From a virus, in IMG/VR virus record IMGVR_UViG_3300005530_000025, positions 1-64,000 of that record: a stretch of 64,000 nt of DNA. The stretch is one strand, 5' to 3'. The position numbers were made by a program, and so were the translations under genes. The notes beneath the pieces were generated by a model, which worked only from the letters and a program-made list of their open reading frames with translations, was not told the origin of the DNA and made no database searches. Positions 19,793 to 54,420 of the stretch are shown here, piece by piece. The first letter of the stretch is position 1; each line of letters begins with the position of its first letter.

Positions 19793-20074
19793 TCAGCGGG
19801 CGGGCGGATGCCAGTGGTGCAGGCTCTCGGAGTGCCTTCCGTCGGCCAGGGCCTGCATGTAGGCCTGCTCGACATGCTCGGGCATCGGGTCCGGGTGCAT
19901 CAGCCGGATCCCGTCGGAGCTGTTCCACCGGTAATGCTCCAGTGAGGCCCAGTCCCGCTCGGCCAGCCGCTCATCCAGCCAGCGGCGCTCAGCTCGCCGG
20001 TCCCAGCGGCCGGCCAGCCACCATGCGATGGCGAAGCCGGCCGCCAGGGACCCGACGATGATCAGCCTGGTCAC
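19793..20074 (-). CDS. Membrane-anchored hypothetical protein
   Basis: 93 residues, GTG start overlapping the vWA gene's stop. An N-terminal membrane anchor (I-I-V-G-S-L-A-A-G-F-A-I-A-W-W-L) is followed by an Arg/Trp-rich cytoplasmic part (R-W-D-R-R-A-E-R-R-W-L-D-E-R-L). Coupled to the vWA protein, so they may act together. Confidence 0.55.
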   Translation of the reverse strand: MTRLIIVGSLAAGFAIAWWLAGRWDRRAERRWLDERLAERDWASLEHYRWNSSDGIRLMHPDPMPEHVEQAYMQALADGRHSESLHHWHPPAR

Positions 20075-21099
20075 TTCAGGATCAGCGCCGTGGTCCCGCC
20101 GATCATCTTGCGGTTCACCGAGGTGGACTGGATGAAGATCCTCGTGCCCGGCTGCGTGGTCGGGGAGACCTTCGCGTCGAACTCGGGCAGGCCCAGGAGC
20201 TGGCGCGCGGCCGGGCCGGTGTAGACCGCCCCGTCGGAGCTGGTCTGCACCATCACGTCCTTGTAGTTCTGGATCGTGACCGGCTTGGTCAGCTGGTAGA
20301 AGACTGAGCCCTTGCGGTACGGGCGGCCGGTGACCAGCGCGGCGAACTCGTTGACCGGCATGTCGTAGGGCACGTCGGCCAGGTCGTAGCGGATGTGCGG
20401 CAGCGGGTCCAGCGCCGCCGCCGCGGCCTGGGGCGTGACCTGGGCCACGGTGAAGATGCTCCGGCTGCCGCGCACGCCGCGGGTCCGGGCCTCCATGAAA
20501 TCCTGGGAGACCTGGCGGATCTTGGTGCCGACCTCGCGGAAGCCGTGCTCGCTAGTCGTGTCCCACTTGTCGATGTTCCCGGCCGGGAAGCCGCACTTCT
20601 TGGCGTAGGTGACGCCCATCGAGTCGGGAACGAAGGCGGCCACCGTCCAGTGATCCGGCAGGCCGGTAATGCGCCGCTCCAGGTCCAGGGCGCAGAACCG
20701 GCGCGAGGTGTTCTCCTGGCCGTCGGTGATGACGAAGACCACGAAGGAATGCTCGCCGTAGCGCTCGGGCGTCTCGGCCAGCTCGTCGATCGCCTGGTGG
20801 GCCGCGTCGATGAGCGGGGTCATGGCCACGGGCCGGTACCGGCCGGAGATCGACGGCCGGCGGAGTGCGTCCATGTCGTAGAACAGGCAGCGGACGCCGT
20901 CGCTGGAGTCGAAGGTGTAGACCGTGATCCGGGTCTCCTGGCTCATCTCCTCGGACCGGACGGCCATGTCGGCCACGAAGTTGTCCACCACCTGGACGAC
21001 GGCGCGCTGGTGGCGCCGCATCGAGGAGGACTGGTCCACGACCAGCACGAAGTGGTTGATGCGGTTGGCCGGCTCGGCGGCCTGATCTCGCCCGTACAT
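20071..21099 (-). CDS. vWA-domain protein
   Basis: 342 residues, GGGAGGG before the ATG. Residues 17-220 are a von Willebrand factor A domain: F-V-L-V-V-D-Q-S-S-S-M gives the D-x-S-x-S metal site, T-P-L-I-D-A the second metal ligand, and V-F-V-I-T-D-G-Q-E-N the third. The C-terminal 120 residues are beta-rich and unassigned. vWA proteins mediate metal-dependent protein binding; in phages they occur in head or tellurite/AAA-type modules. It has its own transcription unit, bounded by the hairpin at 21170. Confidence 0.75.
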   Translation of the reverse strand: MYGRDQAAEPANRINHFVLVVDQSSSMRRHQRAVVQVVDNFVADMAVRSEEMSQETRITVYTFDSSDGVRCLFYDMDALRRPSISGRYRPVAMTPLIDAAHQAIDELAETPERYGEHSFVVFVITDGQENTSRRFCALDLERRITGLPDHWTVAAFVPDSMGVTYAKKCGFPAGNIDKWDTTSEHGFREVGTKIRQVSQDFMEARTRGVRGSRSIFTVAQVTPQAAAAALDPLPHIRYDLADVPYDMPVNEFAALVTGRPYRKGSVFYQLTKPVTIQNYKDVMVQTSSDGAVYTGPAARQLLGLPEFDAKVSPTTQPGTRIFIQSTSVNRKMIGGTTALILK

Positions 21100-21548: not shown

Positions 21549-22577
21549 TCAACTCTTCGTGATCGACGCCAAGCCCCTCGGATTCAGGATGTTCATGGCC
21601 ACCATCTCGTCGAAGACCCAGCCCTTCCAGAATGCCTCGACGTTGTGGTTCTCCTCGACATCCAGGGAGTACAGGATGGGGAAGACGCCCAGGAAGTTGG
21701 GCTCGGGGGCCAGGAAGATCTTCGCCTGCGGGACGATGATCGAGCGCTGGATCTGGAACTCACCGAAGCTGGTGATGGTCTCGCCCGCAACCACCCGGTC
21801 CTTGAAGGCCCAGCCGGTCTGGTTGATGTCCCACCGGAACATGTCCCGGTAGTCGAACGGGTTGATCAGGATCCGCGCCGACGGCAGCTCGTGCAGGTCG
21901 GTCATCGCCACGGCCGAGTACAGCGAGCCCGGGGTCAGGTAGCCCGACGCCTCGGTGATGTTGTGGTTGGGGGTGACCACGTGGTCGGGCCGGGTGGCGT
22001 AGTCGGTGATCGCCGCCTGGAGGAGCACCAGCAGCCGGGCGTCCTCCTGCTTCAGGATCGCCTGCTTGGTCTCGTCCTGGGCCTGCTCGACCGCGTTGAT
22101 CCGCAGGTAGAACAGGTCCTCCTTGCGGATGGCCGGCCGGCTCGCGATCCGGAAGAACCGCACCGGGATGCGCTTGCCCTCGAACGGGGTCACGCGGACC
22201 TCGCCCTCGGTGCCGCTCAGGATGTAGGCCTGGCCCAGGTCGTCCCACACGTCGTACTCGACTGGCGTGCCCGGCGTGACCGGGTCCTCGACCAGCACGT
22301 TCCGGACGATGCCCTGGTAGCGCAGCTTCAGCTGGATGGGGCCGACCATCCCGACGCCGAGACGGCGGAAGCCGTGCATCTCGTCGGAGAGGATGAGCGC
22401 CATCTTGCGGACCTTGGCCTCGCGCGTGAGCCCTACGCCGTTCGTCCGAGACCGGCGGGCCTCGATCTGGGCGACGTAGTCATCGCTCTTGCGGGAGGCC
22501 ACTCGCGGACGCAGGCCGCCGCCTTGCGGCGCCAGCGCCAGCTGCCCGCCAGCCGAAACGGTGGCCAGCTCGTTCAT
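21549..22577 (-). CDS. Major capsid protein candidate (HK97-like)
   Basis: 342 residues with a strong AGGAAAGGAA site. Mixed alpha/beta sequence without membrane or enzyme motifs, few Cys, and a well-ordered C-terminal half (I-F-L-A-P-E-P-N-F-L-G-V-F-P-I-L-Y; V-E-A-F-W-K-G-W-V-F-D-E-M-V-A). Position right after the protease-scaffold and decoration genes, its own ribosome-binding site and a downstream hairpin all fit the major head protein. The length is normal for a mature HK97-fold subunit. The fold was not tested. Confidence 0.7.
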   Translation of the reverse strand: MNELATVSAGGQLALAPQGGGLRPRVASRKSDDYVAQIEARRSRTNGVGLTREAKVRKMALILSDEMHGFRRLGVGMVGPIQLKLRYQGIVRNVLVEDPVTPGTPVEYDVWDDLGQAYILSGTEGEVRVTPFEGKRIPVRFFRIASRPAIRKEDLFYLRINAVEQAQDETKQAILKQEDARLLVLLQAAITDYATRPDHVVTPNHNITEASGYLTPGSLYSAVAMTDLHELPSARILINPFDYRDMFRWDINQTGWAFKDRVVAGETITSFGEFQIQRSIIVPQAKIFLAPEPNFLGVFPILYSLDVEENHNVEAFWKGWVFDEMVAMNILNPRGLASITKS

Positions 22578-23363: not shown

Positions 23364-24278
23364 TCAGTCGATGAACAGGTCTGAGTCATCGGCGCCCGCG
23401 CTCGCGGCCGAGGCCGCGGAGGCGTAGTGAGCGGCGCCGACAGACGCGAGGGAAGGGGCCGAGCGGGTGGCGCCCTGGCGGGCCATCGGGCGCGCCGCGG
23501 GCTGCGCCGGGCGGACCCGGGACAGCACCCCGATCTCGTGCTCGATCATCGGGCCGGACATCGAGGCGTCCCGCTCGATCGCCGCGGCGACCGCCAGCTC
23601 GTCGCCCTGGGCGAGGCCGGCCTGGACGCGCAGCCTGGCCAGCCGGATCGAGCCGAAGGTCCGGGCCGCGGAGGCATCCCGGGGCGTGATCTTCGAGGCC
23701 GCCCTCTGGCCGGGGCCCTGACCGGACTCCAGCAGCCAGGGGAACGCCGCCCCGTTGTCGCCCTGGCCGCCGATGCCGGGCCCGTGGGCCTTCAGCGGGT
23801 CCGGGTCGATCCGCACGTCAGTCTCGATGCGGCGCTGGCTCAGCGGCACCCCGCCGTCCTGGCTGGGGTTGGTGCCCTGGACCGGGGCCGTCACGTCGAT
23901 CAGGTCGGTGGCGGGCGGGGTCTGCATCTCCACGCCCGGGGTAATCGCCGTGGTGGTCTGCTCGGCCGGGACATGCGTGGTCGAGCCCGGCGTGGTGCCC
24001 GGCCGCGACGGGTCATCCATCGTCTCCGGGGCCAGAGTCTCCTCGGTGGTCTGCGTCGGCGGGGCCTCCGGCGGGTCCGGCACCGGGCTGGCCGGGTTGA
24101 GCACGTCCGCGTGCCGCTGCATCACCCGGGTCCGGATGGCTGCCAGGTGCTGCCCGGCGCCCGCTGCATTGGCCAGGAAGCCCATCTGCTCGCGGAGGAC
24201 ATCGTTCTCAGCGGTCAGCTCCGCGATGCGGCGCGCCTGAGCCTGGGCCAGCGCCGAGGCGGTCTTGCTTCCTGCCAT
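23364..24278 (-). CDS. Possible internal scaffold product of the fusion gene
   Basis: In-frame ATG at 24278 (residue 1013) preceded by GGAGAGGG eight bases upstream, at the exact boundary where the acidic linker ends and the helical scaffold-like region begins. This would give a 304-residue protein, as lambda Nu3 is made from within gene C. Inferred from the start site and domain boundary only. Confidence 0.4.
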   Translation of the reverse strand: MAGSKTASALAQAQARRIAELTAENDVLREQMGFLANAAGAGQHLAAIRTRVMQRHADVLNPASPVPDPPEAPPTQTTEETLAPETMDDPSRPGTTPGSTTHVPAEQTTTAITPGVEMQTPPATDLIDVTAPVQGTNPSQDGGVPLSQRRIETDVRIDPDPLKAHGPGIGGQGDNGAAFPWLLESGQGPGQRAASKITPRDASAARTFGSIRLARLRVQAGLAQGDELAVAAAIERDASMSGPMIEHEIGVLSRVRPAQPAARPMARQGATRSAPSLASVGAAHYASAASAASAGADDSDLFID

Positions 24279-27200
24279 GTCGTCGTCCCTCTCCGGGTCG
24301 TCGTCCTGTTCCTTCTGGGGGCCGCCAGCAGGTTCGAGCGATCCCTGGCGGCAGGCGGGACACGGCACGCCCGGCTGAGCGGCCACGTCGGGGGCGAAAG
24401 TCTGGCCGCAGGCGGGGCAGGCCAGCTGGCCGGCGGGAGCAGGAGCGAGCTGGTCCTCGGTGCCCTCGTTCTCCAGTTCCTGGCCCTCGCCCTGCTCCTC
24501 CCGGGCGGCCTCGGCATCCTCCGCGCCCTGCTCCTGCTCTTCCTCGCCAGCGGCCTGCTCCTCCTGGCCGGGCACCTGCGCGGCCGGCTGGCCCGGCCCG
24601 CCCTGGCCGACAGGCACGCCGTCGGGGGTGAGCTGGTCAGGGTGCTGGAGCTGCCCGGCGGCGTCCGGGTCGGAGCCCATCGCCTGGTCCGGGCCGGTCA
24701 TGACCTCTCCGGACTGGTCGAGCTGGTCACGGACCTGCTGGGCCCTCCCGGTGTCAGGGTCGCGGAACAGGCTCGGCGGCACGGTGAACCCGCAGACCGG
24801 GCAGCGATCGCCGGACCACACGTCGTGCTCGCCGCAGACCGGGCACTCCTCCATCCGCAAGGTGTCCACCTGGGGCGGCACGCGCTCCTCGCCGTAGGCG
24901 ACCGAGCGGCGGCCGTGATAATGCATGTTCTCCTCGGGGATGCCCCCGGGGTGCTGCTGCTGGTGGTGCTGCTTCCAGCGCTCCTGGCCGCGGGTGAAGG
25001 TCTGCACCCGGCCCTTGCTGGCCCCGGCGCCGCCGCCGCCCAGGCCCGCCGAGTCCTCGGCCTGGTTCATCCGCTGCTGGCGAAGCCAGGTAGCGGCCTG
25101 GACCTCGTGCGGCTTGACCTCGCGGCCGTAGTGCTCCGAGAGGGTTCTCGCTGCATCCCGGTACATGTGCGACACGTGGTCGTAGTGCTGCTGCTGGCTG
25201 GCGGGGAACTTCCCGCCCTCCTCCTTGCTCAGCCGCCGGCCCGCGGCCACCGACAGCGCGTGCCGGTCCACGACTACCTGGTGATTGCCGCTGGCCTTGT
25301 CCTCGGGGGTGTCATCGCCGTGCTCGATCAGCTTGGCGAATGCCCGGGTCTTGGGGCCCTTGAGCACCTCGCTGTGGTGCTTGCCGGCCAGCATCTGGAT
25401 GGCGGGCTTCTGCTGGCTGCCCATCGCGCCGGACCCGGGTCCCGGCGGCTCGCCCTGAGCCGCCCGGGAGGCGTTGAACATGTTGATCGGCCATGCGGTC
25501 TGCGGGCTGTAGGCGCTCAGCAGGCCCGCTCCCAGGGCATGATTGCCGCCCGCGATGGCCCCGGCCACATGATGGGCGTCGGAATACCAGCGCCTGCCCA
25601 GCGACCGCTCGTCATCAGTGGTCTGGTGATAGGCCGTCACGATGTTGCCGGCGTTCATCGGGTGGTCCCGGAAGAACGGGTGGTCCCCGCCCTGCTTCTT
25701 GCGGGACGGCCTGGCGGCCGGGGCATCCTCGCCCTCGGCAGCTGCCGTCCTGGCCCACTCACCCTGATCCTCCAGCTCGGGCGCATAAGCGAATGCCCCT
25801 GGCCCGGGCGGGTGCTGCCTCAGGGCTGCGTCCCGGTGCATCAGCTCATGCGGCAGCAGCGCGGTCTTCTGCGGGGCGAACTGGCCGGTGGCGATCAGCA
25901 TCGAGTTCTGACCGCGGGTCTCGGTAGTCATGGCATGGCGGGCCGGCCCGTGGAACATCCGCGAGTGAGCCAGCCAGGCAGCCTCCTCGCCGTGGCGGTC
26001 AAAGGACCGTCCGGTAGCCGCGTGCCCGAAGGCATCGTGCACTGCCCGGAACTTGTCATTGGTGTCGTCGTCAAAGAACCCGTGCGGACCAGTAGCGGCC
26101 GTGCTGAGGACCTGAAGGCGCCCGTTCTTGTTCAGGTCGTGCGCCATCTCCAGGTGATTGGCGTACGGGTCATGATCAACTGACTGAACCTTGACCCTCA
26201 TCGCGTGAGTCAGGTGGTGGTACTGGTCATGCACCTGGCGGGCCATGTCCGCGAACGCGGCATGGGCTCCGGGATCGTTCATCGGCAGCGAGTGATAGGC
26301 CTGGGCCAGCTTCCGGATCCGGTCCGGGTTTGTCTCGATATGGCCGTATCCCTCAGCATGCGGGTCCTCCAGGCCATGCCGGGAGGAATAGGCACGAGCG
26401 CCCTCCACCATGCTCCGCACCGGGTGCACCGCAGGATCTCCCCGCCGGTTCAGGCGGTTATCGTCGATGTCCAGGCTCGCGGCAGCTGTATGACGGTGCT
26501 GGAGCGTCCGGCCGCAGGAGACGTGATGGCAGCCAGTCAGGTGATACAGATTGTCGGCGTCGGCCGCTGACTGACTGAACTCAGCCGAGGCCGTGCTCCG
26601 CAGGGAGGCCGCCTTCCGCCGCGCGCTAGCTCCCCTGCCAGGCATCTTCAGGCCGCGGGCGTCCACGTCGCCCAGGACATAGGCGGTCGGGTCGGCCGGG
26701 TCCTCGACCAGCAGGCTGTTCTCGAAGAACGACAGGCCGGCGCAGATCTCGTGGATCAGCTTCTCCTCGACCCGGCCGGTCACCGGGTTGGTCTTGCGGA
26801 TCTTCTTGCCCTTCAGCGCGGGCAGGTGCGCGCAGTACTCGGCCGGGTTGGTGGCCTTGTTGCCGCAGGCCGAGCACTTCGACCACTCGACATCGACGCC
26901 CATGGAGGTCCGGTTGACCCTGCCTGCCAGGAGCGCCGCGGCCAGCCGGGGGAAGCGCAGCGCGTCGATCTCCATCAGGCCCTCAGCCCAGGTGTCCGGG
27001 CTGCTGTCGGGGTTGCGGTCCCGGTGCAGGGCGACCGCCACGATCACGCCGCGGGCACGGCGGTGGTTGGCGTTGTGATGGTTGACGAAGACCGGCTTGC
27101 CGAGGAAGGTCTGGTAGCCCTTCTCGATCTCGATATCCGGGAAAGTGTCGTGATTGTCATTGGTCCGGGAGGAGATCATCCTCGACCGGACGTAGATGAA

Positions 27201-27314
27201 GCCGGGCCGCGGCTCATAGTCGAAGGCCACCCGGTGCGCTGACTTGCGCAGGCCCTGGTCCCGCTGTCCCGACCATGCCTCCAGGACTTCGAGCCTGGCG
27301 TACTTCCGCAGCAT
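23364..27314 (-). CDS. Giant prohead protease-scaffold fusion with inserted domains
   Basis: 1316 residues, GGAGGG before the ATG. Residues 1-220: protease-like domain with F-V-N-H-H-N (His 79/80) and R-T-S-M-G-V (Ser 137), plus a Cys cluster (C147, C150, C161). About 280-530: a His-rich domain with V-H-D-A-F-G-H-A-A-T-G. About 560-780: a helical domain with A-Y-S-P-Q-T-A-W and V-V-V-D-R-H-A-L that I think resembles helix-hairpin-helix glycosylase-type proteins. Then two zinc ribbons, an acidic Gln/Glu linker, and from residue 1013 a helical scaffold-like region ending D-D-S-D-L-F-I-D. It precedes the decoration and capsid genes. The protease call is moderate; the middle domains are not established. 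Confidence 0.65.
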   Translation of the reverse strand: MLRKYARLEVLEAWSGQRDQGLRKSAHRVAFDYEPRPGFIYVRSRMISSRTNDNHDTFPDIEIEKGYQTFLGKPVFVNHHNANHRRARGVIVAVALHRDRNPDSSPDTWAEGLMEIDALRFPRLAAALLAGRVNRTSMGVDVEWSKCSACGNKATNPAEYCAHLPALKGKKIRKTNPVTGRVEEKLIHEICAGLSFFENSLLVEDPADPTAYVLGDVDARGLKMPGRGASARRKAASLRSTASAEFSQSAADADNLYHLTGCHHVSCGRTLQHRHTAAASLDIDDNRLNRRGDPAVHPVRSMVEGARAYSSRHGLEDPHAEGYGHIETNPDRIRKLAQAYHSLPMNDPGAHAAFADMARQVHDQYHHLTHAMRVKVQSVDHDPYANHLEMAHDLNKNGRLQVLSTAATGPHGFFDDDTNDKFRAVHDAFGHAATGRSFDRHGEEAAWLAHSRMFHGPARHAMTTETRGQNSMLIATGQFAPQKTALLPHELMHRDAALRQHPPGPGAFAYAPELEDQGEWARTAAAEGEDAPAARPSRKKQGGDHPFFRDHPMNAGNIVTAYHQTTDDERSLGRRWYSDAHHVAGAIAGGNHALGAGLLSAYSPQTAWPINMFNASRAAQGEPPGPGSGAMGSQQKPAIQMLAGKHHSEVLKGPKTRAFAKLIEHGDDTPEDKASGNHQVVVDRHALSVAAGRRLSKEEGGKFPASQQQHYDHVSHMYRDAARTLSEHYGREVKPHEVQAATWLRQQRMNQAEDSAGLGGGGAGASKGRVQTFTRGQERWKQHHQQQHPGGIPEENMHYHGRRSVAYGEERVPPQVDTLRMEECPVCGEHDVWSGDRCPVCGFTVPPSLFRDPDTGRAQQVRDQLDQSGEVMTGPDQAMGSDPDAAGQLQHPDQLTPDGVPVGQGGPGQPAAQVPGQEEQAAGEEEQEQGAEDAEAAREEQGEGQELENEGTEDQLAPAPAGQLACPACGQTFAPDVAAQPGVPCPACRQGSLEPAGGPQKEQDDDPERDDDMAGSKTASALAQAQARRIAELTAENDVLREQMGFLANAAGAGQHLAAIRTRVMQRHADVLNPASPVPDPPEAPPTQTTEETLAPETMDDPSRPGTTPGSTTHVPAEQTTTAITPGVEMQTPPATDLIDVTAPVQGTNPSQDGGVPLSQRRIETDVRIDPDPLKAHGPGIGGQGDNGAAFPWLLESGQGPGQRAASKITPRDASAARTFGSIRLARLRVQAGLAQGDELAVAAAIERDASMSGPMIEHEIGVLSRVRPAQPAARPMARQGATRSAPSLASVGAAHYASAASAASAGADDSDLFID

Positions 27315-33265: not shown

Positions 33266-36200
33266 TCAGGCCGAGATCACGTCATCTTCGAAGTCGTCGA
33301 GAGACAGCCCGCGGCGGCCCAGGTCCTCGTCCTGGTCCTCATAGTGGGTGCCCTCCAGGCGCAGCAGGCCCAGGTTCCGGGCCCGCGTGCCCCTGCCCTC
33401 GCCGATCAGCTCGGCTGCCTCTGCCTCGGGCAGCACGTCAGCGGTCTTGGCCAGGTAAGCGCGGGCGGCGGCGGCGATGTCTCCCCCGGCCGCTCCGGAG
33501 GCCTGGCCGGGAGTGCCGCCGGAGAACTGGCGCGCCGCGGCGGAGCGCTGGAACGCGGCAACGATGTCATCGAGGTCGCCCTGGGGCTCGCCGGCCGGGA
33601 CAGAGACCTCGCCGGAGTCGGTGCCGCCACCAGACCACTGCTGATTGCCCACGGTCTGGATGGAGGGATCCTCTGGTGATAGCGCGTCATCCATCGAACC
33701 CATTCCCGGTTCCTGGGTCGCAAGCTGGGTTCCCTCCGCCGGGTCGCCCTGGACGGCGTAGGCCGCGTGCACGCTGGCGCCATCGTTCATCCCGCAGGCC
33801 GGGCAGCTCCCGTCAGGCTGGCCGCCGTAGGGGTGCGGCACATCCTGGGCATCTCCCGCGGTGCCGTCGATCCCGGCGTCCTGGCGCTGCTCCTCGCCCT
33901 CGGTGCCGATGGTGGCGGGCAGGGCGGGCTCGGGCTCATCGTGATTGCTGGGCAGGCCCGTGCACCCCGCCGGGCATCCCTGCGCGTGCACCACCGGGTC
34001 CCGGAAGACCGGCTCGCAGTCGGGGCCGGGCGCGGACTGGCCGCTGGCATCGCAGCGGTAGCACTCGTGCCCGGTGAGGTGCTCGCCGGTCCCGCCGCAG
34101 CAGGGGCAGCCGCCAGCTGACGCGACAAACCCAGGGGAGCTGGCGGCGTCAGACCAGCGGTCGCGGCCATAGCGGCGCTCGTGATCAGTCTCGTGGTAGG
34201 GATGCGGGGCATAGCCGGGCGGCGCCGGGTCGCCCATCGCCATGCCGCGCTCCACGTCCTCGTGATCACGGGCGTGCCGCTCGTGGTAGGCGTCCAGGCC
34301 AGGCTCGTCCTCGTAGCCGTGCTGCTCCATCAGGTGGCGGCGGAACTCCTCGGCGTCATCGGCCGGGCTGAGGCTCTCCTCCATCCGGATGCCCTGCGGG
34401 TCGCCGGGATCCATGCCGGTCAGCGAGCTGCTGGTGGCGTCCCGGTCGCTGAAGCCGAAAGTGCCCTGCTCATCCTGGCTCGCGATCGAGGGGACCTGGA
34501 GGCCGGGCGGCATCGGGTCCGGGGCGCCGGGCACGAGTACCTTGTGGGCTGCATTCGACAGCGGCATCTGGATGAAGCTGCCCTCGTCGATTGATCCCCA
34601 GTTGTCCGGGTCCGGGCCGGCCAGCGGCCCGTAGCTGCCCGGATCCTTGTCCGGGTCAGGGGCCTCGGTCGCGCCGTAGGGCTTGGCCGGCGGGTGCGCG
34701 GTGACGTTCTCGCTGCCCCAGGGGCCGTTGGCCTGATCGGCATTGATGATGAGGCTGGCCAGGCGGGCGAGCGCCAGCACCTCATCCGGGTCTTCCCCGG
34801 CGGCCAGCAGGGCGGCCACGGCGTGCTTCGCGGGCGGCTCGGCAGTCATCTCCGCATGCGTCCACATCTCGTGGTGGTCGTCGAAGGGGTAAGCCATCGG
34901 GTTCCACCGGATGGGAGTGTGCGCGCCCCGGCCGCCGGATCCGGCCCGGTTCTCCTCCGCGTCCATCGCCGTGCGCATCGGGTCGAAGTAGTTCTTCCAG
35001 CCCCTGTCCGGGTGCACATGGTGGGTATTGACCTCGGGGTGCGGCTCCTCGTACCTGGCCCACCAGGAGTTGCCCTTGTCAGTCCGGACGCCGTGGTCGA
35101 TGAACCCGCTGGCCTGGCGGGCCTTCGAGTACAGGCGGTCCATCATGGCCGAGGCGATGCCCTTGCCCTGCTGACTGCTGTGCAGCATGTGCACGGCGTA
35201 GGCCCGGCCGTCATCGCTCTGCGAGTAATGCAGGCTGCCGACGTGCTCGCCCCCCAGGTGCGCCTTGATGACATGGCTGGCCTGGGATGCGGGATGCGTG
35301 GACCAGTGCGGGTCGTGGTCGGGGTTCGGGCCGTCGGTGATCTCCAGGCCGGCCGGGCGGGCATGGGTCAGCGAGCGGGCAGTGACGCCGCCGGGCGGGC
35401 AGGGTCCGTCATGCCGGTACAGGCAGTCCTGGCCGGACAGCGCGGACAGGTGCGGCCGGGCGGGCACGAACGAGTGCAGCGGCTCGTGGCCGAAGAACTC
35501 GTCCCGCGGCTCCCCGGTGACCTCGTGCTCCATGCCCGGCTTGTCGTATCCGCCGAACAGGTCATCGACCTCGCGCGGCCGGAACAGCGCCGGGTAGCGC
35601 TCCTCGTGCGGCAGGCCGCGCGGGGTGTGGTGCTGGTGGCTCATCTCATCGCCGTAGCGCTGGTGCTCGGCCTCGTGGAACTCCTGCATCTCGCCATGGC
35701 CGGCCGCCGCCAGCCGGTTGGCGTCCAGGCCGTGGTGGTGCTCCAGGTGCGCGCGCACCTCGTGGTCCTCGGGCTCGCTGGCATACGGCAGCCTGTGCGC
35801 CGTCCTGCGGCTGGCGGCCGGGGCCAGCCAGGTCTCCGCCCAGCCGCCCGCGCCCCACGGGGGCATTGACTTGACCACGACCTGGCGCGGCGGCATGCCC
35901 TCGGGCCGCGGGTCCTCGCGGACCCCCTCCCCCGTGCGCGTGCGCGAGAGGGCCTCCAGCTGGAGCGCCATGACATGGCTGCACGGCCGGCCCGCGTAGC
36001 GGGTGCCCAGGGACTTGTCCTGGTGGAAGCTGGCCCACGGGCAGCCGCACGCCCAGTGGTGCATGGACTGCGGGTGACCGGGCCGCCGCTGGATGCCGGA
36101 CTCGTACACGTCGTGATCGCCGCCGACCTCACCGATCACCAGCCCCGGGGAGGCATGGGTGATCCGGACCCGGCCGGCCTTGCGGATCCGCTGGGCCTTG

Positions 36201-38074
36201 CGCCGGACATCGGCCCAGCTGGCGGTGAACTCGAACCGGAAGGCGGGGCTGGCAGAGGCGGCGCCGAGCGCGGCCACGTGCACCTCGATCGTCTTGCCGG
36301 TATCGTTCCCGGTGCCGCCGTCCTCGCCCTCTTCCTGCCCTGGCGGGGCGGACGGGGCTGGCGGGGGCGGCGGCGGCCAGACATTCCCGTGCTGGTCATG
36401 GGTGCCCTGGGTATAGGCCGGGCCGCCGGCGTTGATGTGAGCGCCCGCCAGCGGCCACTCCTGCGGGTCGGTGTCCTCCGGATCCTGCTGCTCGCCGGCG
36501 GAGTCGTCCAGGGCGTCATCAGTGTCCGGCCCGGTGTCCATCGGAGCACCAGGGCTGACCTGCGGATTCTTGCTATCGGGTGCTGAATTGTCCTGGCTGC
36601 TGACCTGGTCGCTGTCCGGCGGGCCGGGCGGCTTCGAGCTGAGCCGGTGCAGCCTGGTCCACTCGCTCCACTGCTCCGGGCCGAGCACGCTGGCCCGGCC
36701 GGAGGCGGCCAGGTCCTCCGCGGTCGCCGGCGAGTCCGGGCGCGTCTCGGGGCCGGGGGTGAAGGGCATCGTCCCGCCGTGGGAGTGGTTCGCCATCCCG
36801 GCCTCGTGCAGAGCCTCGTGCCAGTGGCTGGGGCGGTTGCCCTGGCCCAGGATCCGGTCGATCCCCGGCTGGCCGTAGCCATGCTTATCGCGCAGGTGAT
36901 CGGCCCAGTCGTCCTCGGTCACCGCGGTGCGCAGCATGGCCTCGCGGGCCTGGCGGCCGGCTCGCTCCAGCTCTGCGCTCTCCGGCTCGTCGATGACCGG
37001 CTGCTGGTTGGTGAACTCGGTGGAGGGCACGAAGTCACCCCAGCTGGCCCCGTTGCCGGTGTCGAAGTCATGCAGGTCAGAGCGTTCCTCGCCGGTCCAG
37101 GGCACCCGGCTCGCGGTAAAGGCCCCGATCTCCAGGCCGGGCCCGCCGCCGGCGGACATCCCCTCGGGGTACATGCCGACGGTGGCGCCGTTGGCCTTCT
37201 CCTTGTCCACCCCGGGCAGCGGCTCATTCCACCGGCTGTCGCCCTCGCCCTCGGCGGACTGGTCGTCATAGCCGTCCGGGTCGCCTGCCCGCGGGATGGT
37301 GCCGTGCTGCGGGGCGTCCCCGGCATCGTCGATCTGAGTCCCGTTGATCGTGGTCGCGTGATGACGCGCGCCGATCAGTGCCGATGCCTCCTCGATCTCG
37401 GCCAGCCGGGCGAGCGGCGGAGGGAGCATCCAGGCAGGCGGCGGGGCCTCCTCCTGGGGGCCCAGGTTCTCGTGCACCCAGTCCTGCTGGGCTGGCTCTG
37501 CCCAGTACAGCCCCAGATCACCCTCGCCTCCGCTGTAATCGGAGTCCCGCGGGTCATCCGGCCGCCCGTAGGTGTCCGCGGCGGTACGGGACCCGACCGT
37601 GCGGATATACAGGCCGGGGTCGGGCCGCTCGTGCAGGATCTGGCCCATCTCCGGGTAGTCGTCGCTGGCCAGGTGCGCGAAGGACTGATCCTGGGTGGCG
37701 GCGATTCCGGTCAGGTACTCCTCGGCCGGCATCCCGGCCTGTGCCTCGGGCATGGCGCGCCAGGCGGCCCGGGCCTCGTCCTCGGTAACGTACCGGGCGG
37801 TCACCCCGGCGGGCAGGTTCGAGCCCGGCGAGCCGCCGCGGAAGGCATCGGGCAGCGGCCTCAGCTGGCTCTCGGTGTAGATGCCCTGGCCCATGCCGCT
37901 GTCGAGCACGACCTGGTACTCGGTCAGCCCCGGGGCGAAGGCGCCGGAGACGAACAGGACCCGGCCGGGCAGGCCGTCGATCGTCATGACCCGCTGCTGT
38001 GCAGCGAAGCCCGTGCCCAGTGCGGCCTGCCGCCCCGTCCGCCGGGTGGCATGCCTCTCGATGCGCCGCGCCAT
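33266..38074 (-). CDS. Giant multidomain head-region protein with SWIM finger and GNAT-like segment
   Basis: 1602 residues from ATG at 38074 (GGAGGGAGGAGG upstream). Features in order: an N-terminal SH3-like part (V-M-T-I-D-G-L-P-G-R-V-L-F-V); a long acidic low-complexity region; a SWIM finger near 690-730 (W-A-C-G-C-P-W...R-P-C-S-H-V-M-A); several His-rich repeats (L-E-H-H-H-G-L, L-R-D-K-H-G-Y, L-M-E-Q-H-G-Y); a GNAT-like acetyltransferase core near 960-1020 (V-G-S-L-H-Y...Q-Q-G-K-G-I-A-S-A-M-M); then zinc pairs (C-P-C-C-G-G-T-G, C-Y-R-C-D) and a helical C terminus. It lies between portal and protease, the usual place for capsid-interior or MuF-type proteins. Activity is not established. Confidence 0.6.
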   Translation of the reverse strand: MARRIERHATRRTGRQAALGTGFAAQQRVMTIDGLPGRVLFVSGAFAPGLTEYQVVLDSGMGQGIYTESQLRPLPDAFRGGSPGSNLPAGVTARYVTEDEARAAWRAMPEAQAGMPAEEYLTGIAATQDQSFAHLASDDYPEMGQILHERPDPGLYIRTVGSRTAADTYGRPDDPRDSDYSGGEGDLGLYWAEPAQQDWVHENLGPQEEAPPPAWMLPPPLARLAEIEEASALIGARHHATTINGTQIDDAGDAPQHGTIPRAGDPDGYDDQSAEGEGDSRWNEPLPGVDKEKANGATVGMYPEGMSAGGGPGLEIGAFTASRVPWTGEERSDLHDFDTGNGASWGDFVPSTEFTNQQPVIDEPESAELERAGRQAREAMLRTAVTEDDWADHLRDKHGYGQPGIDRILGQGNRPSHWHEALHEAGMANHSHGGTMPFTPGPETRPDSPATAEDLAASGRASVLGPEQWSEWTRLHRLSSKPPGPPDSDQVSSQDNSAPDSKNPQVSPGAPMDTGPDTDDALDDSAGEQQDPEDTDPQEWPLAGAHINAGGPAYTQGTHDQHGNVWPPPPPPAPSAPPGQEEGEDGGTGNDTGKTIEVHVAALGAASASPAFRFEFTASWADVRRKAQRIRKAGRVRITHASPGLVIGEVGGDHDVYESGIQRRPGHPQSMHHWACGCPWASFHQDKSLGTRYAGRPCSHVMALQLEALSRTRTGEGVREDPRPEGMPPRQVVVKSMPPWGAGGWAETWLAPAASRRTAHRLPYASEPEDHEVRAHLEHHHGLDANRLAAAGHGEMQEFHEAEHQRYGDEMSHQHHTPRGLPHEERYPALFRPREVDDLFGGYDKPGMEHEVTGEPRDEFFGHEPLHSFVPARPHLSALSGQDCLYRHDGPCPPGGVTARSLTHARPAGLEITDGPNPDHDPHWSTHPASQASHVIKAHLGGEHVGSLHYSQSDDGRAYAVHMLHSSQQGKGIASAMMDRLYSKARQASGFIDHGVRTDKGNSWWARYEEPHPEVNTHHVHPDRGWKNYFDPMRTAMDAEENRAGSGGRGAHTPIRWNPMAYPFDDHHEMWTHAEMTAEPPAKHAVAALLAAGEDPDEVLALARLASLIINADQANGPWGSENVTAHPPAKPYGATEAPDPDKDPGSYGPLAGPDPDNWGSIDEGSFIQMPLSNAAHKVLVPGAPDPMPPGLQVPSIASQDEQGTFGFSDRDATSSSLTGMDPGDPQGIRMEESLSPADDAEEFRRHLMEQHGYEDEPGLDAYHERHARDHEDVERGMAMGDPAPPGYAPHPYHETDHERRYGRDRWSDAASSPGFVASAGGCPCCGGTGEHLTGHECYRCDASGQSAPGPDCEPVFRDPVVHAQGCPAGCTGLPSNHDEPEPALPATIGTEGEEQRQDAGIDGTAGDAQDVPHPYGGQPDGSCPACGMNDGASVHAAYAVQGDPAEGTQLATQEPGMGSMDDALSPEDPSIQTVGNQQWSGGGTDSGEVSVPAGEPQGDLDDIVAAFQRSAAARQFSGGTPGQASGAAGGDIAAAARAYLAKTADVLPEAEAAELIGEGRGTRARNLGLLRLEGTHYEDQDEDLGRRGLSLDDFEDDVISA

Positions 38075-38807: not shown

Positions 38808-38956
38808 GGATCTCGCACGTGCCTCTCTACTGGATCGCCGCGATGGCGGGCCTGGCCCTGCGGCAGGGAGCCATGGCCTTCATCCGGGTGCTTATCATCC
38901 TGCGCGCGGCGATCTTCCTGGCCGCGCTGCTGGAGCTGATGGAGGGGACAGGATGA
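38804..38956 (+). CDS. Small membrane peptide
   Basis: 50 residues, GTG overlapping the previous stop (GTGA). One or two hydrophobic stretches (F-I-R-V-L-I-I-L-R-A-A-I-F-L-A-A-L-L). Its stop overlaps the next start. The longer frame to 38687 runs inside the previous gene and is not used. Confidence 0.45.
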   Translation: MRISHVPLYWIAAMAGLALRQGAMAFIRVLIILRAAIFLAALLELMEGTG

Positions 38957-39306
38957 AGGACAGGATCTACCTGGTCTGCGATGAGTACAGCGTGCGCAGG
39001 ATGACCAAGCGAGAGCCGAGACTGACCCACGGCGAGACTGCCGTCATGGTCGATGTCGAGGCCGATCCCGGCGCCCTCCAGGCGCCCACCGTTGCCCAGA
39101 GGATGCATGTCACTGACTGGCGTAACGGCCTGGATCTCGGCGGTGTCACCATCCGGCAGTCCTTCATCACCATCGGCGCGGCTGCCGCGGTCCGGGACGA
39201 GATCCTGACCCGGATGGCCGCCGCCCTGGAGGCCGCCGGGTTCGAGGTGATCCCGCCTGCGGAGCTGGTGCCGGCCCTGACTGCCGGGGACGGAGAGACA
39301 GGATGA
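38953..39306 (+). CDS. Hypothetical protein
   Basis: 117 residues. N-terminal beta part with D-R-I-Y-L-V-C-D-E-Y and T-V-A-Q-R-M; C-terminal helix (V-R-D-E-I-L-T-R-M-A-A-A-L-E-A-A-G-F-E-V). Coupled both sides by ATGA overlaps. Not recognised. Confidence 0.55.
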   Translation: MKDRIYLVCDEYSVRRMTKREPRLTHGETAVMVDVEADPGALQAPTVAQRMHVTDWRNGLDLGGVTIRQSFITIGAAAAVRDEILTRMAAALEAAGFEVIPPAELVPALTAGDGETG

Positions 39307-39695
39307 CCACGCTGACCACCGATTCCGTCGCGAGGTTCTTCCGCGATGCCGCCCGGGCTATCGAGATGCAGGGCTGGACCCGGCATGGTCATGACGGATG
39401 CGAGGGACTGAGCCTGGCATCCGCACTGTGCCAGGTCATCCATCCGGGCGACCACCGGGCCGAGTGCCCCCCGGACTGCGAGGAGGCGGCCGACCGGCTG
39501 CTGGGCTGGATGCTGCTGACCGGGGTAACGCACCTGCCCGGCGGTCGCAGCGTCCGGGCCTTTAACGTCCTGGCAGCCTGGAACGATAACCGGCGCCGTG
39601 ACCGGGAGCAGGTAGTGAGCCTGCTGCTGGGCGCGGCGGCCACCCTGGAGGAGCTGCCCTGGCGGCTGTCCGAGTTCCTGGAGAGCCTCCGGTGA
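39303..39695 (+). CDS. DUF6197-like protein
   Basis: 130 residues. I-E-M-Q-G-W-T near the start, a small central domain, and A-A-W-N-D-N followed by a V-V-S-L-L-L-G-A-A helix. This order recalls DUF6197, a small actinobacterial family with E-x-x-G-W-x-Q and W-N-D motifs. Function of the family is unknown. Coupled in the rightward run. Confidence 0.5.
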   Translation: MTTLTTDSVARFFRDAARAIEMQGWTRHGHDGCEGLSLASALCQVIHPGDHRAECPPDCEEAADRLLGWMLLTGVTHLPGGRSVRAFNVLAAWNDNRRRDREQVVSLLLGAAATLEELPWRLSEFLESLR

Positions 39696-40048
39696 GCCCG
39701 GTCTTCGGCCGCCGCCCGGATAACCCGCAGCCCTTCTCGAAGATGATCGTGGCAGCCAGCCGCACCGTGATCACCAGGGACGAGCGGCGGCAGCTGGAGT
39801 ACACGCTGCGCGGCGCTGAGCGGACCGTGGCCAGGATGGTGAACCTGCTGGAGACCGGACGGGCAGTCCGGCGGGGTGACATGGCCACCCGGCTGGATGT
39901 CCTCAGCGGGGACCTGGGGCGCTGCTACACCGCGCTGCTGACTGCTGAGCTGGCCGACCGGCAGGCCCGGGAGGAGCAGGAGCGCAAGGCGGAGGAGGCC
40001 GCGATGGACCGGCTCCGGCGCGAGTGGAACGGAGATGACCCGTCATGA
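39692..40048 (+). CDS. Helical hypothetical protein
   Basis: 118 residues, GTG start. Mostly charged helix with a likely coiled coil at the C terminus (R-Q-A-R-E-E-Q-E-R-K-A-E-E-A-A-M-D-R-L-R-R-E). No Cys or membrane segment. Function unknown. Confidence 0.5.
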   Translation: MSPVFGRRPDNPQPFSKMIVAASRTVITRDERRQLEYTLRGAERTVARMVNLLETGRAVRRGDMATRLDVLSGDLGRCYTALLTAELADRQAREEQERKAEEAAMDRLRREWNGDDPS

Positions 40049-40446
40049 TCACGGAGCTGATTCTGGCCAGCATGATCATCATCGGCGGCATGACCGCGGC
40101 GATCATCGCCGCCCACCGGCAGCAGTCCCGGCGGATCCTCGCGCCCCGGGCGATCGAGGCACCGCGCCGGAAGGAGCTGCCGGCCCCGGCCAGGCCGATG
40201 GCACCGCGGCCGGTGTTCGTGCTGCCGGACCTGGATGACGAGCCGGACCCGGACGGGGAAGACCCGGCGGAGGACGGCGAGCCGTGCGAGCGCCCGGACT
40301 GCGACCGGAGCCTGCCGGCTCCCCCGCAGGAGCCCTGGGAGGTCCGGGTGACCGGCGAGACCCGGCGGTTCTGCTCAGGAGACTGCGCGAACGCCTGGGT
40401 GGAGGAAGACAGGGCCAGGCGGGTCAGCAGCGGGCGCCGCCGGTAA
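40045..40446 (+). CDS. Membrane-anchored zinc-motif protein
   Basis: 133 residues. N-terminal membrane helix (L-I-L-A-S-M-I-I-I-G-G-M-T-A-A-I-I-A-A), Pro-rich acidic linker, then C-E-R-P-D-C and F-C-S-G-D-C-A-N-A-W, the latter resembling a MYM/TRASH-type C-S-x-x-C-x-x-A-W zinc motif. Last gene before the collagen-like one. Confidence 0.55.
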   Translation: MITELILASMIIIGGMTAAIIAAHRQQSRRILAPRAIEAPRRKELPAPARPMAPRPVFVLPDLDDEPDPDGEDPAEDGEPCERPDCDRSLPAPPQEPWEVRVTGETRRFCSGDCANAWVEEDRARRVSSGRRR

Positions 40447-40545
40447 GCATCCCGGCTGCCTCCTATAGCAAGCAAGGTGGCTATCCGGGCGATAGGGTGC
40501 GCGGGAATCCCCGCTCACCTCACTCCGACGATCCTGGGAGGGATC

Positions 40546-41376
40546 TTGCGTATCTCATTCCTGACGCGGCGCATCGCCGTCGTCTCCGCCGTCATCGCGC
40601 TGGCGGGCGGCACGGCCGCGGGCGCCCTGGCTGCGTCCGGCAGCTCCTCGGCTGCCAGCAGCCCGGCAGCAGCAGCCGCCGCGTCCGGCCAGATCGTCGG
40701 CTGCGTCAAGACCTCCGGCGGCGCGCCGCGGACGATGCAGAACGTCTACACGGGCGTGGCCAACTTCAGGGGCTGCCCGGCGGGCACCTTCCAGGCCGGG
40801 CCGTGGAACGTCCGGGGCCCGAGGGGCGCTACCGGAGCGAAGGGCGCGACCGGGGCCGCCGGCCCCCAGGGCCCGGCCGGGCCTGCCGGGCAGGACGCCC
40901 AGGCGCTTCCCTACGGCATCGGCCAGGTCCTCGTGGACCGCGGGACCGGCGCCACGGCGTGGGCGACCTACTCGACCACCCTGGGCTCGCCCGCGGGTGA
41001 CACCGAGTCCGGCACCTTCCGGTTCACCTGCAAGAACGTCACCGACGGCTGCAACCTGTCCGTCCAGGCCCGCGCCACGGCCAGCGGGTACCAGGTGTAC
41101 CCGCGAGTGCTGATCATCAAGGCCGACAACTCCGGCACGGGCGAGATCCGGAGCACCTGCGAGTACGCCGACGGCTCGGATAATGACGGCGCGTCCACGG
41201 CAGTCGGCACCTCGGCCACCCCGGTGCCGCTGGGCGTCGGCGGCACATTCGACTGCGGCGGCTCCCAGTCCGGCACCCCGGCCAGCGGAGTCACGGACAT
41301 CAACGTGCCCGGGTCGGCCGGGCAGGGGCTGCATTATGATGTGTTCACCACGCTGGTCTTCGCGAAGGCCGGCTAG
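40546..41376 (+). CDS. Secreted collagen-like protein
   Basis: 276 residues, TTG at 40546 with GGGAGG six bases upstream. Signal peptide (F-L-T-R-R-I-A-V-V-S-A-V-I-A-L-A), Ala/Ser linker, a small Cys-containing domain, a collagen-type stretch of nine G-x-y triplets (G-P-R-G-A-T-G-A-K-G-A-T), and a 150-residue beta C-terminal domain with four Cys. Short collagen stalks with globular heads are common in phage fibres and in exported proteins. It is followed by a strong terminator. Confidence 0.65.
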   Translation: MRISFLTRRIAVVSAVIALAGGTAAGALAASGSSSAASSPAAAAAASGQIVGCVKTSGGAPRTMQNVYTGVANFRGCPAGTFQAGPWNVRGPRGATGAKGATGAAGPQGPAGPAGQDAQALPYGIGQVLVDRGTGATAWATYSTTLGSPAGDTESGTFRFTCKNVTDGCNLSVQARATASGYQVYPRVLIIKADNSGTGEIRSTCEYADGSDNDGASTAVGTSATPVPLGVGGTFDCGGSQSGTPASGVTDINVPGSAGQGLHYDVFTTLVFAKAG

Positions 41377-41819: not shown

Positions 41820-44105
41820 TCAGGTCATCACCTCATCGCGATCGTAATTGAGCAGATCGGTGCTCTCTGCCGTGACCCCGAGATGGCGGCGGATGCCGAC
41901 GTGCGCAGGATCCTGATAGGCGCGCAGCTGCGGGCCGGATACCCAGTCGCCGCGCTCCTCCCTGGCCTGCCGCTCGGTCTCGGGCCCGTGCGCCACCATC
42001 ACGAAGCCCTCGATCACGTTCTCCCCCTGATCCTGAGCGGCGCGCTCCAGGCGGGCCGCGCGCTGGCCGTCCTGGGCGGCCTCGTTCACGGCCCGGGCCA
42101 TCGCGGCCTCGCTGCGCACCCGGGCCGCGCGCCGGTACAGCGAGCCCTGGCGGGTCATCAGGGACGGGCGGCGGGCGGCGGCCACCGGCATGCCGTCGCG
42201 CTCCTCGTCGCTCTCGGGCGGGCGCTGGGCCATGTCCTCGATCTCCTCGTCACCCTCCGGCCCCTCAGACGGCGCGGCCGGGTCGATCTCCTCGTTCTCG
42301 TCCCCGGGCACCATGTCCTCCGGGGTAGGCGCAAGGTCGGGCAGGGTCGGCGGGGTGATGCCCATGCGGTCGATCATGACCTGCTCCTGGGCGATCGCCG
42401 GCGGCACTCCCTCCTGCTGGGCGAACGCGGCGAAGTCGGCCTTCAGGTCCTCCGGGATCGGCAGGCCCTCCTTCATCAGCTCGATGTAGGCCTGGCGGCG
42501 GGTGCGGGCCTGGGCCACGATGTCGGCCACGGCCTCGTCCTGGGACTTCTCCCGCTCCTCGTCCAGGTCGATGCCCAGGCCGCGGGTGCGGGTGCGCTGG
42601 CTGATCGGGATGCCGGATGCGCGCAGCGCCTCGGTGAACTGCCGCTGGGTGTCCTCGTCCCGGAAGTTGAGCACCGCGAAGTCGAGGTCGGGGACCAGGA
42701 GCGCGGGCTGCTCGGTGATGCGCCGCTCGCCGGTCTCCTCGTCGATCTCCAGGACCTCCTCCATCTTCACGAACCGGCGGCCGTTGCGCTCCTCGTAGTC
42801 GTAGTGCTCCTGGGCCTCGGCCACGATCAGGGCGCGCTGGGTGAAGTGCCGCTTCAGGTACTTCTGGTAGCGGGTCATCAGCTGCTCGACCAGCTGCTTG
42901 TTCAGCGCGTCAGCCGCGTAGGTCTGGCCCTCCTGGGCGCCCATCAGGAACGTCCGGGACAGGCCGAACACCTGGAGCACCCTGTCCTCGATCCGCTCGA
43001 AGTCGGGGGTCAGGTCGGGCATGTTCTCCCGGCCGAAGACAGGCTGGATGTCCACCGCGAAGTTGTGGATCAGGGCCCGGAAGTCGCCGGCCAGGGCAGC
43101 ATCGAGCGCCAGCTCGAAGTTCTCCAGGTCATCGTCGGTGGGGATCCACGGGACCGAGGTGCCCAGGTCGGTGGCGGAGGCACCGAGCTTGCACAGGATG
43201 AGCGGGGTGTAGAGCCGGTCCGCGATGGAGTCCAGTGCGGTGTTGAGCATCTCCTGCTGGAGCATGGAGCGCATCGCCCGGGTGAGCAGCGGCAGCCCGC
43301 GGAGGCTGAAGGTGTCGCCCTTGAAGCGCAGCTGCTTGAGCAGGATGTTGCTGACGGGCATGTAGGCGTTCTCGGCCGTGTAGGCGGCCAGCTCGGGGTA
43401 CTCCTGGACCAGCTTCTGGTACTCCCAGACGGGCTGGCGGGTGGTGAGGATCTGCCGGATCGTCCAGGGCAGCCGGATGAAGTACCGCGGGTCCTTCAGG
43501 AACGGGGACCGCTCGACCTTGATGTCATCGGGGTTGAGCAGCTCCTCGTCATCCCAGATGCCCAGGTCCTCGTTGAAGGTGGCAAACGGCCACGCCTCCC
43601 CGGCCGTGTAGTACTCCCGGCCGATGTCGATCATGAACTCCTCGTAGTCCAGGCCGTCCTCGTCGAAGAACAGCCCGGAGTAGAACTCCTCCAGCCGGGT
43701 GTCCTTGCATGCCAGGTGCGCGCCCACCACGGGGAACTTCGAGAAGATGTCCACGCACGAGCCCACGATGGGGTCTGTCTGGTAGAGCAGCCGGCAGAAC
43801 GCCCGGACCTTGGCCAGCTCCTCGTTCTCGGAGAAGTCGTAGGGCAGGTTGTTCTGGCGCCAGTAGAACAGCGGGTCACGCGGGCGGCCGGTGGCGAACT
43901 GGATGTCAGAGAAGCCGCCGCCCGCGCCGCCGTAGCCCGAGCCCGCAGTGCGCGAGATCCGGGCCACCCGGGCATTCACCCGGCGGTTCTTGCGAGCCTC
44001 CGCCACCTCAGGCGACATCTGCTCATCACGCAGCCCGCGGGCGCCGAAGGCCAGCCCCCGGGACAGCTCGGACTGGCCGGGAGCTGGCTTGTAGGTGACC
44101 CTCAT
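41820..44105 (-). CDS. Portal protein
   Basis: 761 residues from ATG at 44105, overlapping the previous stop (ATGA) with GGAGGGG upstream; an earlier in-frame start lies within the previous gene. Large alpha/beta protein with Y-Q-T-D-P-I-V-G-S-C-V-D-I-F, a long helical stem and K-Y-L-K-R-H-F-T, then an extended acidic C-terminal tail (D-E-E-I-E-D-M-A) that may sit in the head. It heads the structural block, and composition and order match portals of large actinophages. The terminase is not in the window. Confidence 0.75.
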   Translation of the reverse strand: MRVTYKPAPGQSELSRGLAFGARGLRDEQMSPEVAEARKNRRVNARVARISRTAGSGYGGAGGGFSDIQFATGRPRDPLFYWRQNNLPYDFSENEELAKVRAFCRLLYQTDPIVGSCVDIFSKFPVVGAHLACKDTRLEEFYSGLFFDEDGLDYEEFMIDIGREYYTAGEAWPFATFNEDLGIWDDEELLNPDDIKVERSPFLKDPRYFIRLPWTIRQILTTRQPVWEYQKLVQEYPELAAYTAENAYMPVSNILLKQLRFKGDTFSLRGLPLLTRAMRSMLQQEMLNTALDSIADRLYTPLILCKLGASATDLGTSVPWIPTDDDLENFELALDAALAGDFRALIHNFAVDIQPVFGRENMPDLTPDFERIEDRVLQVFGLSRTFLMGAQEGQTYAADALNKQLVEQLMTRYQKYLKRHFTQRALIVAEAQEHYDYEERNGRRFVKMEEVLEIDEETGERRITEQPALLVPDLDFAVLNFRDEDTQRQFTEALRASGIPISQRTRTRGLGIDLDEEREKSQDEAVADIVAQARTRRQAYIELMKEGLPIPEDLKADFAAFAQQEGVPPAIAQEQVMIDRMGITPPTLPDLAPTPEDMVPGDENEEIDPAAPSEGPEGDEEIEDMAQRPPESDEERDGMPVAAARRPSLMTRQGSLYRRAARVRSEAAMARAVNEAAQDGQRAARLERAAQDQGENVIEGFVMVAHGPETERQAREERGDWVSGPQLRAYQDPAHVGIRRHLGVTAESTDLLNYDRDEVMT

Positions 44106-44341
44106 GACCCCTCCGGTCCGCGCAGCATCCCGGCCCACTTGCGCAGGCGGCAGGGATCAGCCCCGGTAGTGCGGCCGGCCAGCCCGCCGACGGCATCCAG
44201 GTGGTCGGCCAGCTCGTCCAGCAGGTTCGGGTCGATCGCCTCGGCCGCCCGCAGCAGCCGGTCATGCCGGCGGGCCCGGGCGGAGGCGGACCGGACCTCC
44301 TGGCGGGCCGGCTCCTCGCGCGCCCTAGCCGCCTGGTGCAC
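44102..44341 (-). CDS. Small helical protein upstream of portal
   Basis: 79 residues from GTG at 44341, which has GGAGGAGG five bases upstream; the longer frame to 44377 lacks one. Basic N terminus then helices (L-L-R-A-A-E-A-I-D-P-N-L-L-D-E-L-A-D-H-L). Overlaps both neighbours. Function unknown. Confidence 0.5.
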   Translation of the reverse strand: MHQAARAREEPARQEVRSASARARRHDRLLRAAEAIDPNLLDELADHLDAVGGLAGRTTGADPCRLRKWAGMLRGPEGS

Positions 44342-53170: not shown

Positions 53171-53444
53171 CGGGGGCCTCCCTCGTGGCTGCGGCCAGGG
53201 CAGCGTCCATGCGGCGGCTGCCGGCCCGGAAGCGCTTGGCCTGGCCCTTGCAGTGGTCGCAGCAGTAGCGCGCCCTCAGCGGCAGCACGGAGCCGTGCAG
53301 CCTCCCGAGGAGCGCCAGGCGCCGCTGGTCCCCGCGGACCTGGTCCAGGTCGGTGAGGCAGTTGCCGCAGTGCCGCGGGCACGGGCAGCCGGCGGCGTGG
53401 TAGCCCACGGACGGGTCGTCGTACAGCCAGGCGGTCTCAGCCAT
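53163..53444 (-). CDS. Cys-rich zinc protein, paralog of 47074-47391
   Basis: 93 residues. A-G-C-P-C-P-R-H-C-G-N-C-L-T-D and, 40 residues on, R-Y-C-C-D-H-C-K-G-Q-A-K-R-F. Same cysteine order as the paralog. Coupled with the PP-loop enzyme upstream. Confidence 0.6.
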   Translation of the reverse strand: MAETAWLYDDPSVGYHAAGCPCPRHCGNCLTDLDQVRGDQRRLALLGRLHGSVLPLRARYCCDHCKGQAKRFRAGSRRMDAALAAATREAPGA

Positions 53445-54261: not shown

Positions 54262-54295
54262 GGTGCCTCCTCGTCGTCCGTCCCTTGCAGATTCC

Positions 54296-54324
54296 ACATT
54301 ACAGGATTTCTTGCTATTGTTCAA
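54296..54324 (-). promoter_or_regulatory. Promoter of the PP-loop gene run
   Basis: Leftward TTGAAC, 17-nt spacer AATAGCAAGAAATCCTG, TAATGT, then leader CTGCAAGGGACGGACGACGA and GGAGG before GTG at 54261. Confidence 0.75.
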
Positions 54325-54399: not shown

Positions 54400-54420
54400 A
54401 GACGTGACGCGAGGAGACGC

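Follow-up and report, generated by a model that had tools for sequence, protein, structure and literature searches.

A modular SWIM-finger protein encoded between portal and protease genes: a candidate capsid-borne carrier of exchangeable enzyme domains

The gene and its genomic setting

The window, a stretch of 64 kb of viral DNA with a G+C content of about 70% and 37 tRNA genes, has matches to the PHROGs families of the portal, of a protease-containing protein, of the major head protein and of the tail sheath. Because of these matches, the source, a soil phage, is classified as contractile-tailed and as a distant relative of Myrna and of the Bxz1-like phages. An earlier note, made from the letters alone, had placed a large ORF between the portal and protease genes, and this is where the gene of the 1602-residue SWIM protein lies, on the minus strand (Table 1). 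The ATG start codon at position 38074 is preceded by GGAGGGAGGAGG, a strong ribosome-binding sequence. A TTG start, which would give a protein of 1646 residues, is disfavoured: the alignment with L010, the closest homolog (66% identical), begins at the ATG. The ORF is intact, and a second, longer contig (L002, 98,612 bases) matches it with 0 differences over 4806 nucleotides.

Table 1. Head-region genes of the window and parts of the SWIM protein, with their positions
Feature	Position	Strand	Basis
Portal protein; gene upstream of the SWIM gene	41820..44138	minus	phrog_2833, E=2e-137
Modular SWIM chassis protein of the head region, 1602 aa	33266..38074	minus	ORF call and homologs
N-terminal anchor, Tudor/SH3-like barrel, residues 1-118	37721..38074	minus	family HMM; AF2 of homolog L027
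His module 1, residues 379-443, with RTA (382-384) at its start	36746..36940	minus	module HMM
SWIM anchor, basic, residues 604-720 (C676, C678, C698, H700)	35915..36265	minus	alignment, HMM, AF2 of homolog L027
His module 2, residues 762-826, with RTA at 757 just ahead	35597..35791	minus	module HMM
Cargo slot, about residues 857-1080	34835..35506	minus	comparison with relatives; GNAT in the window
Cys/His knuckle (884-892) and GNAT, residues 877-1065 (QQGKGIA 968-974, Tyr 1008)	34880..35446	minus	Pfam, AF2, Foldseek
His module 3, residues 1233-1299	34178..34378	minus	module HMM
Cys pairs, residues 1323-1427	33794..34108	minus	sequence inspection
C-terminal anchor with GTHYE, residues 1485-1591	33302..33622	minus	family HMM, similarity to homologs
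1316-aa protein with head maturation protease domain and [RK]TA motifs; gene downstream of the SWIM gene	23364..27314	minus	PHROGs
Major head protein; gene after the protease gene	21549..22577	minus	PHROGs

Five ORFs of the plus strand, opposite to the direction of the head genes, occupy the interval between the portal and SWIM genes (38953-41376), and one of these (40477-41376) is tail-fibre-like. In Myrna and Alice, the portal-SWIM interval contains ThyX and an RNA ligase. The tRNA genes form an array on the minus strand (9157-16868); the tRNA at 11116-11189 has the anticodon CTA, is amber suppressor-like and is called tRNA-Pyl by ARAGORN. The window also encodes a phosphoadenosine phosphosulfate reductase-like protein (53437-54588; phrog_424, E 5e-34) and, just downstream of the major head protein, a protein of phrog_26613 (20071-21099) which has the same length as the latter (342 aa).

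Homologs of the SWIM protein were found by tblastn in 210 phage records, mostly of mycobacteriophages (including Myrna and Bxz1-like phages), with Gordonia and Rhodococcus phages; the strong similarity seen at this level is concentrated in the SWIM domain and the C-terminus. A search of IMG/VR with an alignment of the SWIM part returned 47 loci, for a family put at about 45 viral loci. In each of the 39 loci with a portal gene, the order on one strand is the same: the portal gene, then the SWIM gene and, where the locus reaches them, the protease and major capsid protein (MCP) genes. The named homologs are Myrna gp96, Alice gp89, Finch gp16 and RedWattleHog gp12, and these four phages also have the portal-SWIM order with protease and MCP genes downstream.

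Conserved anchors and variable modules of the SWIM protein

HMMs define a common plan for the family: an N-terminal anchor, a variable part, the SWIM domain, a second variable part and a C-terminal anchor with the motif GTHY. The N-terminal anchor is not recognisable in a close subgroup (L013, L014 and L016-L022), and it was not found in other ORFs of the loci L013, L014, L016-L018 and L020-L022. In one locus (L061, 7458-11734), the SWIM protein is encoded by two overlapping ORFs, the first with the N-terminal anchor and a GNAT domain, the second with another GNAT and the SWIM domain; the L064 protein is split in the same way. These splits could stem from a frameshift in sequencing or from programmed frameshifting.

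The SWIM-type finger proposed in the earlier note is confirmed by the alignment of 32 members: the Cys and His columns of the signature C676-G-C678...C698-S-H700 are invariant, together with D622, K626, R629, G634, V650, G652, D653, Y657, W680, R696 and A703, and CxC...CxH is found in each homolog that has a complete SWIM domain. The Pfam family PF04434 does not match the window protein; its curated cut-off (19.6 bits) is passed by the homologs RedWattleHog gp12 (21.7 bits) and L034 (23.3 bits). In the AF2 model of the compact homolog L027, the N-terminal barrel and the SWIM region are the sole parts resolved. The SWIM domain is mostly confident in this model, and human ZSWIM8 appears in the top rows of its Foldseek search, as a weak match (E 0.07). 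One segment of L027 had looked like an ADP-ribosyltransferase on visual inspection; with a pLDDT below 50 in the AF2 model, it was dropped. The structural matches of the N-terminus (Tudor/SH3) include the RNA polymerase-binding modules of UvrD/PcrA, CarD and NusG; this fold is so widespread that the matches do not point to a partner, and this idea was set aside.

The short repeated His motifs turn out to be three copies of a single module with one pattern, H-L-x3-H-G...H-x3-H...H, which is present in 0 to about six copies per homolog according to the HMM. The additional pairs announced by the earlier note are there as well, as Cys pairs in acidic linkers (CPCC at 1323, CYRC at 1338, CPAGC at 1367 and CPAC at 1424). 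The net charge of the protein is -130 overall and +7 in the SWIM part, and the linkers are acidic.

The GNAT domain comes after a Cys/His knuckle (CLYRHDGPC), which also accompanies the GNAT of L010, L029, L011 and L028. The acyl-CoA loop recognised by the earlier note, QQGKGIA, has the form Q/R-x-x-G-x-G/A. Pfam Acetyltransf_1 (PF00583) matches residues 927-991 with 21.1 bits, for a cut-off of 20.7, when the whole protein is searched, and with 25.3 bits (E 2e-5) when the domain is searched alone. AF2, run on residues 878-1064 together with five homologs, gives the strand-helix order of GNATs, with a core pLDDT of about 80-93; the mean pLDDT of the best model is moderate (73) and that of the remaining four models is 54-60. 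The top Foldseek/VIA-align matches are all GNATs (Z up to 9.3), among which are Ard1, RimI, aminoglycoside acetyltransferases, YjdJ and At1g77540 with CoA (Z 9.2, rmsd 2.5 over 87 residues). Structure prediction, which the earlier note had put forward as a check, thus gives a GNAT topology; the outcome that the note had named as refuting, no GNAT fold in residues 940-1040, did not occur. The six GNAT homologs have in common G-x-G-x-x-S-A-x-M-D and I-x-H-G-x-R-T-x-x-G-x-x-W-W-x-x-Y, and the P-loop glycines, Tyr 1008 and H-G-x-R-T are unchanged down to 33% identity. Since the SWIM and GNAT features are conserved in independent viruses, they are no accident.

Relative to L010, dN/dS is 0.21 in the SWIM domain, 0.22 in the C-terminus and 0.46 in the GNAT, which indicates that the window protein is constrained and that its cargo changes faster. 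The value of 1.36 for the short His module 2, with only 58 codons, is left out of this reading.

The GNAT domain alone has zero matches in 50,697 phage records, and its relatives known here are therefore IMG/VR contigs. When bacterial genomes were scanned with the alignment of the GNAT, only two ordinary cellular GNATs came up, and a prophage source was not found. Members of the same GNAT family occur without SWIM in L066-L080, in proteins of about 500-1965 aa from GC-rich viruses, many of which begin with MTDIS..SFFRQ; the protein of L078 also has a 2H phosphoesterase domain, and that of L071 several GNAT copies. In L048 (6055-8190), a GNAT of this family has its own ORF directly upstream of a short SWIM protein of 404 aa.

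The comparison with relatives defines a slot whose content varies. It is occupied by a GNAT, after SWIM, in the window, L010 and L029, by a GDSL/SGNH hydrolase in L022 (E 5e-18) and by a His module in L014, L015 and L021; it is empty in L013, L016, L017 and L018, which have 1-13 aa between the joined flanks. Elsewhere in the family, the GNAT is ahead of SWIM (L011, L024, L028, L060 and L064, with two copies in L028), and other cargoes are Arr-type ADP-ribosyltransferases (L024, L025 and L030), NUDIX domains (L032 and L064) and LysM (seven members). The enzymes are exchanged at the level of the family, the window member itself having one recognised enzyme domain. In this comparison the GNAT behaves as an exchangeable cassette and SWIM as the conserved part. 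Many family members have no GNAT, and for this reason the domain would not be essential to a carrier.

The [RK]TA motif and the possible function of the protein

In 34 homologs, 68 occurrences of RTA were counted, compared with 15 expected from composition and 4 to 19 for each of its five permutations, an excess that is inflated by the repeated counting of homologous positions. With the conserved anchors set aside, [RK]TA ranks first all the same (31 vs 5 to 20). In Finch, the large internal-head candidates gp12, gp13, gp16 and gp17 have 23 [RK]TA in 3083 aa, compared with 6 in 11,139 aa of tail and replication proteins (p=6e-11); this comparison does not have the flaw of repeated homology, and its gene groups were picked after the motif was seen. 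The SWIM and protease proteins of the window have 8 in 2964 residues, compared with 4 in 12,184 (p=5e-4). One RTA of the window protein (757-759) is at the point where most close homologs diverge (755-761), and another, at 1034, is behind the GNAT core.

The motif was not found in five MCPs nor in the minor capsid proteins, and its use as the cleavage site of the MCP is ruled out (absent from 5 of 5). In other phages, prohead proteases also cut the MCP, so [RK]TA may not be a cleavage site at all. It may serve in maturation cleavage or in loading, each of which would explain the pattern, and it offers a rule for either that is open to direct testing. Finch gp12, encoded upstream of the portal (L004, 4438-6837), has nine [RK]TA, mostly KTA, spread over its 799 residues; it is possibly another internal head protein and a substrate of the same protease.

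We consider it fairly probable that the SWIM protein sits inside the head of a Myrna/Bxz1-like actinophage, where it works as a capsid-loaded, modular carrier of "polyvalent" effectors. The support comes from the family, the synteny, the GNAT fold, the domain swapping and the motif enrichment, from which we infer the steps that go from virion location to activity. The three anchors (the Tudor/SH3-like barrel, the basic SWIM and the GTHY domain) would hold the polypeptide in the prohead, on the packaged DNA, or both, since SWIM is basic and the remainder acidic. The exchangeable cassettes, in the window a putative GNAT acyltransferase, would be borne on the acidic flexible linkers. The protein would be loaded into the prohead alongside the portal and the protease; the maturation protease would then cut it, perhaps at [RK]TA, which would free the cargo modules from one another before they are ejected together with the DNA. 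Early in infection, the GNAT would modify host proteins (or small molecules); what suggests protein targets is the structural matches to RimI and Ard1 together with the precedent of polyvalent proteins.

The earlier note had imagined an effector that brings an acetyltransferase to the host. The GNAT fold and the SWIM finger hold (AF2, structural matches, alignment); as for delivery, the gene position, the domain swapping and the enzymes of the relatives (ADP-ribosyltransferase, NUDIX, GDSL hydrolase) agree with an effector packaged in the head, which supports that part of the idea partially. Virion proteomics for the SWIM protein or its relatives, including those of cluster C phages, was not found in the searchable literature; in the cryo-EM paper on Myrna, the mass spectrometry described concerns bands of Rosebush alone. 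We regard as less probable a more specific version, in which the family would form a dedicated capsid-loading chassis of large actinophages with defined slots and the protease would cut [RK]TA and free the enzymes inside the head prior to injection, a polyprotein cargo of another type than MuF and the internal proteins of T4.

The protein could instead be an internal scaffold or core for head assembly, whose enzymes would remain undelivered and act during morphogenesis, within infected cells, on components of the phage or the host. The conserved anchors, a gene that adjoins those of the portal, protease and MCP, the acidic and apparently disordered linkers, and the existence of members with an empty slot would all suit such a role. 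However, a scaffold leaves the swapping of ADP-ribosyltransferase, NUDIX, GDSL and GNAT domains unexplained, and domains of this kind have been reported from proteins of other phages that are thought to be injected (PMC5512222). We therefore consider the scaffold unlikely.

That the GNAT is a decayed, non-catalytic remnant, kept as a folded spacer or a binding part, appears quite improbable. It evolves faster than SWIM, its Pfam scores are weak, and L025/L026 have a shorter, remnant-like GNAT match; but its dN/dS is well below 1, and the invariant glycines, tyrosine and H-G-x-R-T described above argue against decay. It is very improbable that the protein is a cell-wall or entry factor in which the LysM of cluster C phages attaches to peptidoglycan as the DNA enters or at lysis, the other domains being accessory: 7 of 32 homologs have LysM and certain database records are labelled "LysM-like endolysin", but LysM is confined to a variable segment and occurs neither in the window nor in its close relatives, Pfam finds no lysin catalytic domain, and the gene is among head genes rather than tail or lysis genes.

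If the capsid-loaded carrier is correct, it gives a function to one of the largest unassigned genes of actinophages, labelled hypothetical or LysM-like in about 210 records of cultured phages (mainly mycobacteriophages). It would also mean that these phages inject enzymes at infection, and would offer a fixed chassis on which enzymes are naturally swapped.

Comparison with known systems

Capsid-packaged multidomain effectors are already known as a kind. A search of the literature for SWIM together with phages returned nothing usable, and the slotted SWIM chassis appears to be undescribed in searchable papers, a scope that most subscription journals fall outside.

The polyvalent proteins described by Iyer et al. 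in 2017 (PMC5512222) occur in phages and conjugative elements and combine ADP-ribosyltransferases, GNATs, 2H and other enzymes. They resemble the SWIM family in being giant and multidomain, in their enzyme classes and in their portal/terminase head-gene context, whereas the SWIM anchor, the Tudor-like N-terminus, the GTHY C-terminus and the His module were not found in the text of that paper. SWIM is mentioned there once, for SWI2/SNF2 ATPases, and for mycobacteriophages the GNAT section names the solo GNAT Alice gp113, not the SWIM gene. Reports of the ADP-ribosyltransferase and NUDIX classes exist for polyvalent proteins packaged in virions or for head-fused proteins (PMC5512222, PMC9503650), and the head-linked NAD-related enzymes (PMC9503650) match the SWIM family in enzyme classes and gene context.

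MuF-domain fusion effectors are likewise head proteins of the portal-terminase phages with exchangeable enzyme domains; in the SWIM family, however, the enzymes are between anchors and not solely at the C-terminus. No MuF domain was matched by Pfam in the window protein and 32 homologs, a search that a very diverged domain could escape.

The internal proteins of T4, which include the ADP-ribosyltransferase Alt, and the ejection proteins of SPN3US and phiKZ are internal, processed by the prohead protease and ejected with the DNA. They are comparable to the SWIM protein in its proposed working only, as no sequence relation was seen. The prohead protease of SPN3US cuts internal head proteins at the short motif AXE (PMC10052503), to be compared with the candidate [RK]TA.

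The direct homologs Myrna gp96, Alice gp89, Finch gp16 and RedWattleHog gp12, labelled hypothetical or LysM-like, have the same three anchors and the same gene position as the window protein; they differ from it in having no GNAT and, in the case of Alice, in having LysM.
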